Source: a virus
Reading direction: 5' to 3' (one strand)
DNA length: 64,000 bases
IMG/VR virus record: IMGVR_UViG_3300008952_000013
Coordinates: 1-64,000 of that record
Shown in pieces: positions 28,274 to 45,806 of this stretch. A model generated the notes under the pieces. It saw only the letters and a list, made by a program, of their open reading frames with translations, ran no database searches and had not been told where the DNA came from. Position 1 is the first letter of the stretch. Each line of letters begins with the position of its first letter. Made by a program: the position numbers and the translations under genes.

Positions 28274-28563
28274 TGAATTTAGTAGAGAGCATAAAAGAAA
28301 AAGTTAACCTTCAAAGCATTATTGATACAGTAATAGATCAAGTCTCTGATGAGACAGTTCTATATCCAGACCTGGAGAGAGCATTAGTGGGTATAGTCTC
28401 CAGGTTTGGTCAACCAGACATCATGTGTTATGACTATGATAAAGTAATAGAGATCTATATGAATGATGGAATGACAGATGATGAAGCCAGGGAGCACTTT
28501 GACTTCAACACCATAGGGGCATGGTATGGTGAAACTACACCATGTTTCATAAGGAATTCTTAA
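28273..28563 (+). CDS. Conserved phage hypothetical protein, 96 residues
   Basis: The start overlaps the previous stop. The second half (YMNDGMTDDEAREHFDFNTIGAWYGETTPCFI) resembles a short protein type seen in many phages with DDEAxxxFDyNxxGAWxGExTP. The function is unknown. Its last 17 bases overlap the 3' end of the histidine kinase gene on the other strand. Confidence 0.65.
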   Translation: MNLVESIKEKVNLQSIIDTVIDQVSDETVLYPDLERALVGIVSRFGQPDIMCYDYDKVIEIYMNDGMTDDEAREHFDFNTIGAWYGETTPCFIRNS

Positions 28564-29989
28564 AGTTCTCTAACTGCTTATATACTTCTGCTACCAGTTC
28601 ATTTTTCTTAAATGGCTTACTAACATAGCCATTCATCCCTGCTGCTTCACACTGATCCCTTATATCTCCTATTACACTAGCAGAAACAGCCACTATAGGT
28701 ATATTATAAAGACTAGAAGCCTCTTCATGTTTGCGTATCTTCCTAGAAGCCTCAAATCCATCCATAACAGGCATTTGTATGTCCATCAGTATTAGATCAT
28801 AGAACTTCCCCTGAACCATGCTCAGGGCTTCTTCACCATCCTTAGCTGTATCTAGGACACTGCAAATATCAGCTAGACAACGTTTAGCTAATACCATATT
28901 AACTTCATCATCATCAACCACTAAAATTTTAAATTTAGCCATTTTTTCTACATCAAAAATTGGACATGTTTTCTTAAAGCAATTCTCTATACACAGTGAC
29001 AATTCAAACTGAAAGATTGAGCCTTTAGTACTACTCTTAGCAGTTATTTCTCCACCCAATTTCTGCACAAACCTCTGACTAATAGCCAACCCTAATCCAG
29101 TTCCACCATATTTACGTGTATTGCTTTCATCCACCTGGAAAAAGGGATCAAACAGTGTTTTAAGATACTCTTTATCAACACCTATACCAGTGTCCTTAAC
29201 TTTAAACTTCACCCCTAGCTCACCAACATTAGACACAGACAGAGTAACCATTCCTTTCTCAGTGAACTTGATGGCATTACCCAATAAGTTAGTTAGCACT
29301 TGATGAATCTTCTGTTCATCTCCAAACCTAACTACATCACGCAGATTATCTATCTCTAATGCAAACTTTAAATCTTTCTTTTCTGCTAGTGGCTTGAAGG
29401 AATCAACAACTTCCCTACACAAAGTAGCTAGATTGAAAGACTCACATTTTAAAGATACCTCATTAGACTCTACACTGGAGAAGGTTAGGATCTCATCTAT
29501 CACATGTAACAAACGATTTGAGGAGTGCACAGCACGTTGAATATCTTCAGCTTGAACATCTGTTACTTCATCTAAGTTAATAAGATCCAGAGATCCTATT
29601 ATCCCATTCATGGGAGTCCTAATCTCATGACTCATTCTGGATAGAAACTGAGTCTTATTATCACTCTCTTCTTCAGCAATCACCTGGGCTTTCTCTGCCA
29701 CAATAGTAGCGTTTTGAGCTATCACCTTATCAGCTAAAGCATCCTTTAGTTCTTGCTTCAACCCCTCTAGTTGGCCCTCAACATGATTGCCAACTTTCTC
29801 AACAGCAGTTTCTCTATGCTGAGTCAACATTTTTTTTAAAAAATTTCTTGTTTTAACACCCTCTTTTCTTTGCACATGAGCTAATAATTCTTTAATTATA
29901 AACACCACCCCTAATGCCCAAAAAAAACCCAATAAAAGTGAGTGCCATATTTCTAGATTAGAAACTGAAAATGTAAGAAAACCTGTCAT
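28547..29989 (-). CDS. Hybrid sensor histidine kinase with receiver domain
   Basis: One N-terminal transmembrane helix (residues about 13-35) and a coiled coil lead to a HisKA dimer helix with FLSRMSHEIRTPMNGIIG (His121). The ATPase domain has the N box (N238), DTGIG (266-270), FDPFF and GGTGLGLAIS. A receiver domain follows, with VVDDDE, phosphoacceptor D403 (LILMDIQMP), VAVSAS and K458 (SKPF). All catalytic residues are present, so it should be active. It has no periplasmic sensor. Hybrid kinases are bacterial signalling proteins and very rare in phages, so this is probably an acquired gene. It is transcribed with the 30026 membrane protein gene. Confidence 0.93.
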   Translation of the reverse strand: MTGFLTFSVSNLEIWHSLLLGFFWALGVVFIIKELLAHVQRKEGVKTRNFLKKMLTQHRETAVEKVGNHVEGQLEGLKQELKDALADKVIAQNATIVAEKAQVIAEEESDNKTQFLSRMSHEIRTPMNGIIGSLDLINLDEVTDVQAEDIQRAVHSSNRLLHVIDEILTFSSVESNEVSLKCESFNLATLCREVVDSFKPLAEKKDLKFALEIDNLRDVVRFGDEQKIHQVLTNLLGNAIKFTEKGMVTLSVSNVGELGVKFKVKDTGIGVDKEYLKTLFDPFFQVDESNTRKYGGTGLGLAISQRFVQKLGGEITAKSSTKGSIFQFELSLCIENCFKKTCPIFDVEKMAKFKILVVDDDEVNMVLAKRCLADICSVLDTAKDGEEALSMVQGKFYDLILMDIQMPVMDGFEASRKIRKHEEASSLYNIPIVAVSASVIGDIRDQCEAAGMNGYVSKPFKKNELVAEVYKQLENFKNSL

Positions 29990-30025
29990 CAATATTTAAT
30001 CCTCATCCTCTACTTTTACATATTT

Positions 30026-31564: not shown

Positions 31565-31760
31565 AATTAATTTTTGTTATTAACAGCAACAAAATTGATT
31601 GGCATTAAAGTCCAACTTAGTTTCTTGACATATAATTCGTCAGCTTGGCATATACTTATTGATTAATAGCGTGTTGGCATCCTACAACAAAATTTAGTAA
31701 CTAAGCAAGATTTGACAATCCAATTTATAAGATCATAGCATTAAGTGCTATCTCAGTAAA

Positions 31761-31875
31761 AAAAAGTGTTTGTAGGGTCAAACAGGGATTGCTCTCCAAA
31801 AGGAAAGTCTTACATCCCCTAACCTAATGGATGATGCCCCACCCATTTGTGCTTTATAGATTATGATTTCAGTAT
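31761..31875 (-). repeat. Structured array element, copy 1
   Basis: About 115 bases, highly similar to copies at 32142, 32938 and 33621. On the minus strand it contains AATGG..CCATT around GGGTGGGGCATCAT, the variable hairpin ACTTTCC-TTTT-GGAGAGC, and GTTTG-ACCCTA-CAAAC followed by a T-rich run. The left flank (31712-31760) also matches that of copy 3. Confidence 0.8.
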
Positions 31876-32141
31876 CCTAACTAGGTTTTCTATGCCCCCC
31901 ACTGGCAGTTGGCATTTCAGCTTCCACAAAAAACCAAACGTAACCCCACAGGTGTAGCTTTGACATTTTTAGCCTGACGAATTGACATTTACACAGGTCT
32001 GTAATATGGTCTTGGCATTAAAACCATCTTCTTCTTCTGATTGACATAAGAAACACATTGGTATTAAATCATACAATAAACCTAATAAATGTATTTGACA
32101 TTTAAACTTCTGTAATAAGAAGATATCAATATGACAAAAAG

Positions 32142-32256
32142 AAAAAGTGTTTGTAGGGTTAAACAAGAATAGCTTTTCAAAAGAAAAGGCTTACATTCTC
32201 TAACCTAATGGATGATGCCCCACCCATTTGTATTTTGTCAATTATGATTTCAGTAT
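32142..32256 (-). repeat. Structured array element, copy 2
   Basis: Same element; the variable hairpin here reads CCTTTTC-TTTT-GAAAAGC, so both arms differ from copy 1 yet still pair. The end-of-element hairpin is GTTTAACCCTACAAAC. The + strand end runs into TTGTCAAT, a repeat-like word. Confidence 0.8.
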
Positions 32257-32492
32257 TTTCATGCGAATAACGCAGTGGTTTGACATTACAAAGACATACA
32301 TTTCAATTGTGTACGAATATTGGCATTAACAATCACTAACCCCTATATCTGTTGTCATTAGTCGCACTTAGAACATTTGGCATTACTCTTCTACTGAGAA
32401 CGCCTTTGTGGTGATTTGGCATCTATGCTACGTTCAAACCCTTGGCATTTTCCTTTGTGTTTTATTGGCATTAACTTAATGGGAAATTGGCA

Positions 32493-32708
32493 TTATTCTT
32501 CATATGCTATGATTGCTCCCATGTTCCACCAGGTTTCATACCTATAGCTAAAGCCATATTGAGACAACACTTCTACTACTATCTCTAACATCCTATTACT
32601 ATTACCTGTAACAATCTTAAATGATGCCTCAGTTGTTAATAGTATATGGTCTTCCACCACATTATATACATTACTATGTCTCACACCATGTAAATTCAAA
32701 CATAACAT
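32493..32708 (-). CDS. Hypothetical protein inside the array, 71 residues
   Basis: The ATG has a very strong AAAAAAAGGAGTC site, the same as in the 7.9-11.8 kb operon. The product (EDHILLTTEASFKIVTGNSN, EIVVEVLSQYGFSYRYETWW) is a small alpha/beta protein without known motif. Its stop codon is part of an ATGCCAA repeat (AATAATGCCAA), just as at the end of tnpB. Confidence 0.6.
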   Translation of the reverse strand: MLCLNLHGVRHSNVYNVVEDHILLTTEASFKIVTGNSNRMLEIVVEVLSQYGFSYRYETWWNMGAIIAYEE

Positions 32709-32937
32709 GAGTTGACTCCTTTTTTTGTGTTTGGTGTAAATTTTCTAAATTAGTTCATATTTCATGTCTTGGCATTAAGGTAGTGTTCAACGTTTTGACA
32801 TTTAGCGCATCAGAAAAAGGATATGTATCAAGCCTTTAGATTGGCATTTAAAAAGCCTAAAGAAATTGGAGATTTGGTACGATTTGACAATCCAATTTAG
32901 AAGATCTTGGCAACTAAGTGCTCCCTTTAAAATAAAT

Positions 32938-33050
32938 AAAAAGTGTTTGTAGGGTCAAACAGGAATCGCTTTCAAAATGAAAGGCTTACATTCCCTAACC
33001 TAATGGATGATGCCCCACCCATTTGTGTTTTTGTCATTTATAATTGCATC
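32938..33050 (-). repeat. Structured array element, copy 3
   Basis: Same element; the variable hairpin is CCTTTC-ATTTT-GAAAGC. Its flank at 32882-32937 matches the flank of copy 1, including two repeat units and the sequences between them, so element and neighbouring units were duplicated together. Confidence 0.8.
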
Positions 33051-33069
33051 ATTGAGGGGATTACTCAAC

Positions 33070-33330
33070 TCATAGTCTTTGACATTTTTTTGAAGGCCAA
33101 TCAGCTATTGACATTGACTTTTTCGCTTCATCCTCACCAACTAGCTCCACTAAACTTTGAACAGCTAGATTTTGTTTAACTCTAAATTCTTTTGGTAGTT
33201 CATTAATTACTAACATAATTCTTTCTACTTCTGAAAGAGAAGCATAATAGATCCTATATTCATCTACCTTAAACATCCAACTTCTAAGGGATTCTTTCTT
33301 AGGGTTAAATACAGTTTCATTAATCTTCAA
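33070..33330 (-). CDS. Hypothetical protein inside the array, 86 residues
   Basis: A TTG start directly follows an ATGCCAA repeat, with AGGTAG upstream. The product is charged and helical (SWMFKVDEYRIYYASLSEVE, ELPKEFRVKQNL), and the last 30 residues are encoded across two repeat copies. No family is recognised. The start is less certain than the frame. Confidence 0.5.
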   Translation of the reverse strand: MKINETVFNPKKESLRSWMFKVDEYRIYYASLSEVERIMLVINELPKEFRVKQNLAVQSLVELVGEDEAKKSMSIADWPSKKCQRL

Positions 33331-33620
33331 TTGGCATTCTACCTATTAATGTGTTGGCATCTGGCTTAGTTTCTTGACATTTAACTTAAGTTGTTCAAGA
33401 GAATTGGCATTAACATTCAGCAATCTTTATCCTTGGCATTACACGTTATGGTGTACTAACATGGCACTAGGGATAAGTTTACGAACACTCCTGACATCGA
33501 CTTGGCATATACCCCCATTGGGCCAACACCTTTGTTGACATTATTAGTCAGCGCAGGAAAAACTCAGCAAAATGTGTTTGTCTTATTTGGCATCATACAA
33601 TCCCTTAAATGACAAAAAAG

Positions 33621-33736
33621 AAAAAGTGTTTGTAGGGTCAAACAAGAATAGCTCTTCAAAAGAAAAGTCTTACATCCTCTAACCTAATGGATGATGCCCC
33701 ACCCATTTGTATTTTTGTCATTTATGATTTCAGTAT
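33621..33736 (-). repeat. Structured array element, copy 4
   Basis: Same element; the variable hairpin is ACTTTTC-TTTT-GAAGAGC. It lies nearest to tnpB. On the minus strand it ends in ACTTTTTCTTTTTT, terminator-like. Confidence 0.8.
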
Positions 33737-34038
33737 GAGAAGATCCTGTATGATTGACATGTTTATACTGATTGACATTCTAGATTACTTTATTTGGCAA
33801 TTTATGCTTTGACATTATCAACCAATCCAAATTGACATTCAGCACTTAGTGATTTTGACATCTACGATAAACCATCACCAACGAATACTTGACATTGAAA
33901 CTATCCTTTTTCAATTACAATTGCCATCTAGAAGATCTTGGTTGACATTTTTCAAGTCATATTGGCATCATACTTCTTTGGCATTGTATCTACGTGTAGT
34001 GTTGTTGGCATCTGCTGTTCAAGCCAAACTCCTTGGCA

Positions 34039-35334
34039 TTAAGAAGCTTTTTTTATCTTTTCCTTTTGCTTCCACAATTGATAGTGTGGTCTAATGTGCT
34101 TCTGAAAGTCTTTCTTGTTGACGTTCTCTACACTCATCTCATTAGAACCAAACATCAATATGTTTATACTGGCATTTCTATCTCTATCATGATGAGCACT
34201 ACAAGATTCGCAATCCCATTCTCTTATCTCCAGGGTTAGTTCCTTATTGACTTCACCACAATTAGAGCATGTCTTAGAAGAAGGGTAGTATCTTTCTATA
34301 AAATGAACCATCTTATCTTTCTTCAAAGCTATTTGCTTCATCTTATCTACAAAACTAGCAAAGGATAGGTCATTTACTTTCTTACCCCACAGCATTTGCA
34401 TACCTTTGATGTTTAGATCCTCAAAGAAGATATAGTCATATTGGTCTGCTATTTGATTAGCCAGTTTCCACTGGAAATCATTTCTTTGATTACGAATTTT
34501 CCTATGTAATCTAGCTAGATTTTCCTTAGCTCTTTTACGATTTCCAGATCCTTTCTTCTTTCTTGATAGGCTTTTACTAGCTACCTGTATTTTCTTTAGG
34601 GTTTCCTTAAAGAAAAGTGGAGACTCAATATCTTTCAAATCAGATGAAGTTAAGAACTTTTTAAGACCAAAATCAAACCCCACAGCTTGTCTAGTAAAGC
34701 TAGTATCTATCTTCTCTACATAGTCTGTTACTATGCTCATATAGTAGTCGTCTAGAGTATCTCTTTTAATAGTAATAGTTTTAATATTACCTAACACTTC
34801 TCTAGATTTGAAATAGTAGTACTTCCTATAATAGCCATTTTTAGCCCTATAGTCGTTTTCCCTTTTCATATCTATTTCAATAGAGTTGTTAGAGTTCAAT
34901 CTCCAACCTTTGGGTAAGTTTTTTCCATCTGTAGAGTTCTTATTAGGTGGTCTTACACCCAGCATAAAGGAATTATACCTATCTCTACCCTTAAAGGTAG
35001 GAGTTCCAGTATCCTTAATACCTTTCTTCTGATCAGAATAGAATCTTTTGTACCCTACATCAATCTTTTTAAGTATTTGAGTCCTGGTAACTGAATTTAT
35101 CATGTTCCAGAAAGCATACTTACCATTAGGGTGGTCTTTCATCTTATTCATATGCCTACTCAACTGGTACATACTAAGATGTTTCTTCCCTTCTGGAAAG
35201 TGATTTTTAAATAACCTATACCTTCTTTTATGCACAGCTATGGCATGATTATAGTAGTGCCTACACATACCTATAATCCTATCAAGTTCCCTTAAGTGTG
35301 GGCTTCTATGCATCTTAAACTGGTATGTTTTCAT
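34039..35334 (-). CDS. tnpB: TnpB-family RNA-guided nuclease
   Basis: The 431-residue protein has the RuvC-type motifs of TnpB/Cas12 ancestors: AVGFDFGLKKF (D221), IFFEDLNIKGM (E305) and HHDRDRNASINIL (D383/D385). A zinc ribbon with C356, C359, C375 and C378 lies between the last two. All catalytic residues are present, so it is not an inactivated repressor type. TnpB proteins bind an RNA from the 3' end of their own gene and cut DNA next to a short motif. No TnpA or transposon ends were found. The stop codon overlaps the first ATGCCAA of the array, and the RRM gene lies 3 bases upstream. Confidence 0.9.
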   Translation of the reverse strand: MKTYQFKMHRSPHLRELDRIIGMCRHYYNHAIAVHKRRYRLFKNHFPEGKKHLSMYQLSRHMNKMKDHPNGKYAFWNMINSVTRTQILKKIDVGYKRFYSDQKKGIKDTGTPTFKGRDRYNSFMLGVRPPNKNSTDGKNLPKGWRLNSNNSIEIDMKRENDYRAKNGYYRKYYYFKSREVLGNIKTITIKRDTLDDYYMSIVTDYVEKIDTSFTRQAVGFDFGLKKFLTSSDLKDIESPLFFKETLKKIQVASKSLSRKKKGSGNRKRAKENLARLHRKIRNQRNDFQWKLANQIADQYDYIFFEDLNIKGMQMLWGKKVNDLSFASFVDKMKQIALKKDKMVHFIERYYPSSKTCSNCGEVNKELTLEIREWDCESCSAHHDRDRNASINILMFGSNEMSVENVNKKDFQKHIRPHYQLWKQKEKIKKAS

Positions 35335-44907: not shown

Positions 44908-45714
44908 TTAATTTTCTAGTTTAGAAAATTTATCATTTTCAACGTCATACACCATTGGAATATTTTCCTTATAGGCTTCACACTTCTCAAAATATCCACA
45001 CCACATACATCTTTTTTCAGTAGGTTCAGCTAATAGGTGAGTTCTATCTAGCTTATCAGCAGATTTCCTAGCAGAATCAATTAGTGTGTCTACATGTCTG
45101 CTGTTTCTTTGGGTTTGCATAAATGTTCCATGTCTTATTAAATACAGACCCATATAATCAGGCGTATACCCTAGTTGCTTTAAGAACCAATAATATGCAG
45201 TTAATTGAATAGAATTATCAACCTCTTCTTGGGATGGTGGAGTTTTTTGTGATTTCCAATCTATGAGATATATAGAGTCGTTTTTTTCAAACACACAGTC
45301 TATATATCCAGATAACCAGATATGGTCAACTAGAGGGAACCTACAATATTTCTCTACCATTATTGGTTGGCTTAAATCCCATCCTCTAAAAATATAATCA
45401 TTTTTCCAATCATCAAGTAGTTCACTTCCCATTTTATAGAAGTCAACTTTTTTCTTTAAGTGTTCAGTATCTGATAGAAAGATGTTTTGATAGTCTTTAT
45501 TCCATTTTTCTAAAATGAAACTTTCATTGTGTACTTGACCAAATTCAATAACATGAGCAATGGTTTCATGTAGGGTACTACCAAAAGAACCATATACAGA
45601 CCAGGGGTTTTGAAGCCTTTGTTCTGGAAGTTTCTGTATATACTTAAGGTGTGTTTTGACACCACATCCATCACTATTTAGATCCTTAATTGAACTTGCG
45701 CTTAGTCTTATCAT
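44908..45714 (-). CDS. Cas4/RecB-type PD-(D/E)xK nuclease with four-Cys cluster
   Basis: ATG 45714 begins MIRLSASSIKDL. The nuclease core reads FGSTLHETIAH, LSGYIDCVFEKNDSIYLIDWKSQK (Asp, then D-W-K) and QLTAYYWFLKQLGY. One Cys near residue 17 and CMWCGYFEKC at the end give the Cys-n-CxxCx5C iron-sulphur arrangement of Cas4 and AddB-type nucleases. It probably resects or trims DNA ends. In CRISPR systems Cas4 helps spacer capture; here that is only worth noting because of the TnpB array. Confidence 0.78.
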   Translation of the reverse strand: MIRLSASSIKDLNSDGCGVKTHLKYIQKLPEQRLQNPWSVYGSFGSTLHETIAHVIEFGQVHNESFILEKWNKDYQNIFLSDTEHLKKKVDFYKMGSELLDDWKNDYIFRGWDLSQPIMVEKYCRFPLVDHIWLSGYIDCVFEKNDSIYLIDWKSQKTPPSQEEVDNSIQLTAYYWFLKQLGYTPDYMGLYLIRHGTFMQTQRNSRHVDTLIDSARKSADKLDRTHLLAEPTEKRCMWCGYFEKCEAYKENIPMVYDVENDKFSKLEN

Positions 45715-45777
45715 AATTAACCTCAAATTTTTATTAGTATAACACAAAAATATTTTTTTTAAAATAGAAATTTTATC

Positions 45778-45806
45778 TTGCACTGGAATTATCAATGTGA
45801 TATCAT
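45778..45806 (+). promoter_or_regulatory. Promoter of the sigma factor gene
   Basis: TTGCAC, 17 bases ending TGTGA, TATCAT, then ATTCTCACC. The TGTGATATCATATT core is shared with sites at 53942 (+) and 61321 (-). Confidence 0.7.

Follow-up and report, generated by a model that had tools for sequence, protein, structure and literature searches.

How a single-guide TnpB became the many-guide CRISPR-Cas12 is a question on which a locus in the IMG/VR virus record IMGVR_UViG_3300008952_000013 bears. The locus lies in the 64,000-nucleotide stretch that was analyzed as a whole (bases 1–64000 of the 133,564-bp record; hereafter the window) and consists of a tnpB gene and, directly 3′ of it on the minus strand, a long array of heptamers with unlike segments between them (Table 1). 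Does such an array supply guides to TnpB, and, if so, where did its repeat come from? We regard it as likely that this phage TnpB uses a guide RNA (omegaRNA) that has been split and multiplied, in which an approximately 120-nt repeat, termed R, would be the part resembling a trans-activating CRISPR RNA (tracrRNA) and each heptamer with its segment would be the part resembling a CRISPR RNA (crRNA).

The plus strand carries TTGRCAT 41 times between positions 31599 and 34039, and 45 times when the near form TTGRCAA is included. Read in the tnpB direction, the heptamers comprise 23 ATGCCAA, 18 ATGTCAA, and 4 TTGYCAA, and the opposite strand of the region holds a single one. A first-order Markov null gave a mean of 1.75 and, in 1000 draws, a maximum of 7, compared to the 45 observed. 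A preliminary description made from the sequence alone had put the number of copies at about 50; the dense array on one strand is borne out, while the count is slightly lower. Conservation is limited to exactly seven columns, preceded by a weak A at −8 and followed by no conserved column past −1, and single-mismatch variants occur at about background level at nearly every position, which shows the heptamer to be sharply kept. Because the heptamers occupy all three frames, the array is not a protein repeat. The intervening sequence consists of 37 segments of 8–62 nt (median 21) that are mutually unlike, as first described, and of six long stretches, four with a copy of R and two with small open reading frames (ORFs). 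The first heptamer does overlap the tnpB stop codon, at 34039–34033 in the direction of the gene, and a small possible remnant hairpin (GAAGC...GCUUC) lies upstream of it.

The origin of the heptamer is indicated by the relatives of the window TnpB, which are 33–49% identical to it. Their right ends read ...hairpin...GGGAGTATGTCAA, followed by the guide, in phages of Helicobacter, gut Bacteroidota, and Aeromonas and also in cyanobacterial, Poribacteria, Synergistaceae, and other genomes. Given that the omegaRNA of these relatives ends in GGGAGTATGTCAA before the guide, the array repeat corresponds to scaffold positions −7 to −1. In the cryo-electron microscopy structure of ISDra2, nucleotides −6 to −2 form a pseudoknot with an upstream loop, on which −1A stacks (PMC10097598). 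In the family of the window TnpB, AUGUC at −7 to −3 is complementary to the scaffold loop GGCAU, and this pairing holds in 257 of 270 cells across 54 members, compared to a mean of 246 and a maximum of 253 in 5000 shuffles, a control that ignores relatedness. Three of the low-scoring rows are apparently wrong right ends picked by the regular expression. Loop and strand covary (GGCGU with ACGUC or GCGUC, GGCAA with UUGUC, and GGCUU with AGGUC), and an identical paired change recurs in separate sources. The C/T position of the heptamer is variable because it faces a G, with which both C and U pair.

The remainder of the scaffold was sought with a covariance model of 26 omegaRNA bodies of the relatives, without the terminal hairpin and without any sequence of the window. 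This model matches the four copies of R on the minus strand (64–70 bits, E about 1e-12) and gave no other credible match anywhere in the 133.6-kb record; a comparison of R with Rfam was likewise without a credible match. The GGCAU loop is present in all four copies. Each relative has the scaffold body at its own tnpB 3′ end, a place where the model gave no match for the tnpB gene of the window; judged by this comparison, the gene has lost its own 3′ scaffold. When aligned, the copies of R end where the terminal hairpin of the relatives starts, and a U-run is next. On the tnpB strand R folds like the family omegaRNA, which the opposite strand does not. Twenty-six pairs hold in 99% of the cells of the four copies, three of them through changes on both sides, and these paired changes lend modest support, from four sequences only, to the fold being kept.

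At the level of sequence, these comparisons establish that the heptamer and R are homologous to the family omegaRNA and that this RNA is split. The initial proposal of many guides for TnpB is thus supported in that the heptamer is identical to the final 7 nt of the relatives' scaffold, its first five bases form one strand of the family pseudoknot, and the four scaffold bodies are interspersed in the array and share its strand. That these guides would be made in one minimal transcript needs refining, as the scaffold is separate and present in four copies.

Table 1. Positions of the guide array, its scaffold copies, and selected genes in the window.
Feature	Positions	Strand	Remarks
Histidine kinase with receiver domain	28547–29992	−	conserved in L010
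Array of 45 heptamers [A/T]TG[C/T]CAA with unlike segments	31599–34039	−	motif counts, Markov null
R1, omegaRNA scaffold body	31774–31847	−	70.3 bits, E 2.7e-13; GGCAU loop 31834–31838
R2, omegaRNA scaffold body	32155–32228	−	64.1 bits, E 6.1e-12; GGCAU loop 32215–32219
Small ORF, 71 aa, inside array	32493–32708	−	matches no known family
R3, omegaRNA scaffold body	32951–33023	−	69.8 bits, E 3.5e-13; GGCAU loop 33010–33014
Small ORF, 86 aa, inside array	33070–33330	−	matches no known family
R4, omegaRNA scaffold body (tracrRNA-like)	33634–33707	−	66.8 bits, E 1.6e-12; GGCAU loop 33694–33698
First heptamer, ATGCCAA	34033–34039	−	overlaps tnpB stop
tnpB, 431 aa	34039–35334	−	Pfam OrfB_IS605 and Cas12f1-like_TNB; NCBIfam guided_TnpB 221 bits (cut-off 100)
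RRM RNA-binding protein, 102 aa	35338–35646	−	RRM_1 E 1.6e-20; NF058537 Rbp_regulator over cut-off
PD-(D/E)XK nuclease	44908–45795	−	PDDEXK_1, E 7e-18; weak Cas4 match below cut-off

The omegaRNA has been described as a natural single-guide RNA with tracr-like and crRNA-like parts (PMC10097598). In the mechanism that we propose, these parts would be encoded apart. The four copies of R (31774–33707), as omegaRNA scaffolds without the 3′ hairpin, would serve as tracrRNAs, and each heptamer with the segment that follows it in the tnpB direction would be a crRNA with no repeat beyond the 7-nt pseudoknot strand. AUGYC of the heptamer would pair with the GGCAU loop of R, with the two As stacking beside the guide, and TnpB would hold the R–heptamer pair and use the segment as guide, which would give the phage about 45 specificities. 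The array would be transcribed together with the genes for the RRM protein and TnpB, heptamer and R may pair in trans, or else in cis if one long transcript carries both, and the RNA would be processed and TnpB would cut. The targets would most likely be phages that compete for the host or other mobile DNA found there. A 24-nt inverted repeat (33606–33629/33701–33724, AAATGACAAAAA...TTTTTTGTCATTT) closes R4, is weaker at the other copies, and could be an RNase III-type release stem. In a simple search for 7-mers enriched upstream of genes, no clear phage promoter emerged that is seen again at R. A 32-nt repeat (91%) at 31709–31740 and 32881–32912, immediately 3′ of R1 and R3 in the tnpB direction, is possibly a promoter-like or processing element.

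Each R might instead serve only the first heptamer downstream of it in cis, so that four guides would work and the other heptamers would be spares activated by recombination or deletion. The next heptamer is 37–55 nt past each R, similar to the stretch taken up by the missing hairpin in the relatives, and the sub-arrays have a few flanking pieces in common. The interval between R and that heptamer, however, has neither a conserved hairpin nor a conserved spacing, heptamers distant from R are as sharply kept as near ones, and the U-run at the end of R suits a separate RNA. We therefore consider an arrangement restricted to cis unlikely. The array might also be decaying debris without function, repeated partial copies of an IS605 right end left by an old element. 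In favor of this, an IS605-type right end is the source of R as well as of the heptamer, and no TnpA (PF01797) was found in the 133.6-kb record; the heptamers are nonetheless perfect amid sequence that is all unlike, base pairs in R are preserved through paired changes, tnpB is intact, and the 45 end motifs are unaccompanied by hairpin fragments, all of which makes decay very improbable.

A role of the heptamers as DNA sites, whether decoys of target-adjacent motifs (TAMs), sigma decoys resembling −35 elements, or sites bound by a protein of replication or partition, would fit a motif that is short, dense, and one-stranded, and TTGAC resembles some TAMs. Promoter-like sites are, however, not enriched (20 vs. 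24.0 in shuffles), which speaks against the sigma decoys considered in the preliminary description, and a TAM decoy array, also considered there, would leave the scaffold copies and the exact 7-nt match unexplained. With its irregular spacing, and with scaffold copies interleaved and a repeat identical to the omegaRNA end, the array is very unlikely to be a set of DNA sites.

It should be noted that several observations weigh against a split and multiplied guide RNA. Segment lengths vary widely, and several segments fall short of the 16 nt of the guide employed with ISDra2. Four heptamers begin with T, which costs one pair of the pseudoknot. Neither R nor the heptamer units contain the terminal 3′ hairpin, and a 5-bp pairing would therefore have to suffice. 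The support from pseudoknot pairing is lessened by the relatedness that the shuffles ignore, and only one lineage with the array is known, from two near-identical contigs. Matches of the segments to the phage's own genome and its relatives were not above the shuffled control, a search of phage and plasmid collections at E ≤ 10 gave nothing credible, and the 18-mer of the first guide was found in IMG/VR only in the sister contig L001. The comparison with viral genomes that had been recommended as a check thus revealed no credible target. When whole records of related phages were compared, segment 32040–32019 matched a gene of unknown role in one of them (L013:4055–4076) over 22 nt (91%), with an E of 0.0035 for that small record and an estimated value of about 0.1 over all that was searched; this match was not counted.

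The protein itself is a TnpB, with the OrfB_IS605 and zinc-ribbon/RuvC domains and intact RuvC residues D221, E305, and D385 (motifs GFDFG, FFEDLN, and HDRDRN). Its AlphaFold model (mean pLDDT 83.7) is closest to ISDra2 TnpB (8h1j; TM-score 0.86 by target), followed by other TnpB proteins, Fanzor2, LaTranC, and Cas12f. These residues bear on whether the array might guide binding and repression and not cutting. TldR repressors act in this way with short seeds, and short segments would be enough in that case. TldR guides of down to 6 nt act (PMC13418256), and some segments here are 8–13 nt; yet the D, E, and D residues are intact in the window TnpB and invariant in the family alignment, whereas TldRs are nuclease-dead, and we consider repression improbable. 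Directly upstream of tnpB, and within the same insertion, is the gene of an RRM protein with few phage homologues, which is absent from the loci of related phages; this protein is a possible helper of the proposed system.

Among known systems, IS200/IS605 TnpB with its omegaRNA, as in ISDra2 and in IS605-type elements of H. pylori phages and of cyanobacteria, shares with the system of the window its protein family and fold, the fold of its scaffold, the pseudoknot, and an ATGTCAA end next to the guide. There, however, TnpB normally has one guide, a scaffold overlapping the 3′ end of tnpB, and a 3′ hairpin, whereas the window has a detached, hairpin-less scaffold in four copies and about 45 guide units. 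An IS200/IS605 transposon has a TnpA (Y1) transposase and subterminal hairpins at its ends; here no TnpA was found, and the right-end hairpin is absent. Type V CRISPR-Cas with a tracrRNA (Cas12f) and the TnpB-CRISPR intermediates (LaTranC, PDB 9jfo–9jfq) combine a TnpB-like nuclease with a guide array and a separate tracr-like RNA, as is proposed for the window, and the omegaRNA pseudoknot corresponds to repeat-antirepeat 1 of Cas12f (PMC10097598). A type V tracrRNA is separate and pairs with the repeat; the predicted scaffold copies of the window, whose loop is complementary to its repeat, would act like one if they pair in trans, and on the present reading the system would work like a type V system that uses a tracrRNA. 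In contrast to type V arrays, whose direct repeats measure some 20 nt at least and whose spacers are regular, the repeat is 7 nt and not a CRISPR repeat, the spacing is irregular, the scaffold copies lie within the array, and no Cas1 (PF01867) was found in the possibly incomplete record. Cas1 is often absent in type V variants. The TranC paper reportedly deals with omegaRNA splitting.

Two further systems resemble parts of this arrangement. The TldR of Oscillibacter also has a TnpB-family guide RNA in two pieces, but there RNase III cuts the RNA of a single gene inside an extended stem-loop, and the protein is nuclease-dead (PMC13418256), whereas here the pieces are encoded apart and multiplied and the RuvC site is not inactivated. 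Like the window phage, TIGR-Tas systems are phage-borne and have a single effector next to which short repeats and guides form an array; their Tas proteins have a Nop domain and their units are dual-spacer units of 36 nt (PMC12045711), whereas no Nop domain (PF01798) was found in the record, the effector is TnpB, and the segments are single and irregular. Among natural systems, TranC proteins and the RNase III-cut dual guide of a TldR (PMC13418256) come closest.

The homology of the repeat to the omegaRNA end suggests that the array grew from TnpB's own guide RNA. It was apparently made from within, with the pseudoknot strand of that RNA as the repeat and the scaffold split off as a separate RNA. 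We tentatively suggest, at somewhat less than even chances, that the omegaRNA was split at its terminal hairpin and its 7-nt pseudoknot strand multiplied, and that a phage thereby came to use a multi-guide system of CRISPR-like type, reached independently and without the hairpin, whose tracr-like genes lie inside the array and which may be able to gain new guides. If the system works, 7 nt and a 5-bp pairing suffice as a repeat, the terminal hairpin, which is present in almost all tested omegaRNAs (PMC10278001), can be lost, and the multi-guide nuclease is a very compact one. The idea of a split omegaRNA becomes directly testable in a simple heterologous assay.

Similar arrays were looked for in several collections, and none of this kind turned up outside this lineage among the sequences covered. 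The densest clusters read out among the matches listed in an IMG/VR pattern scan were protein repeats, tandem repeats of identical units, or clusters of irregular form; in 159 TnpB loci the density of such motifs did not exceed 6 per kb; and in 386 genomes from the phylum to which a cyanobacterial relative belongs, the matches were mainly isolated or part of tandem repeats. A 22-mer of R was found elsewhere only in L001, and the literature that was searched contained no report of the pseudoknot strand serving as the repeat of an array. Two other viral contigs (L128:4889–5065 and L133:9683–9767) show ATGTCAA in loose clusters, with segments between that are unlike.

The window also encodes a portal, a capsid protein, a primase, and a DnaB-like helicase. 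The gene order on the minus strand is SbcC-like ATPase, RRM protein, TnpB, and heptamer array. The sister contig L001, from a separate metagenome in IMG/VR, carries the same first 950 bp of the array and is identical to the window over its 6.2 kb except at five consecutive positions; assembly of the array twice argues against an artefact. In the related phage contig L010, whose portal is 72% identical to that of the window phage, the ATPase gene directly adjoins the histidine kinase gene, and the RRM gene, tnpB, and the array are missing together, so this syntenic site does not show the array without tnpB that had been named as possible counter-evidence. The histidine kinase is thus conserved between the two phages. 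The PD-(D/E)XK nuclease listed in Table 1 might matter if the array acquires guides.

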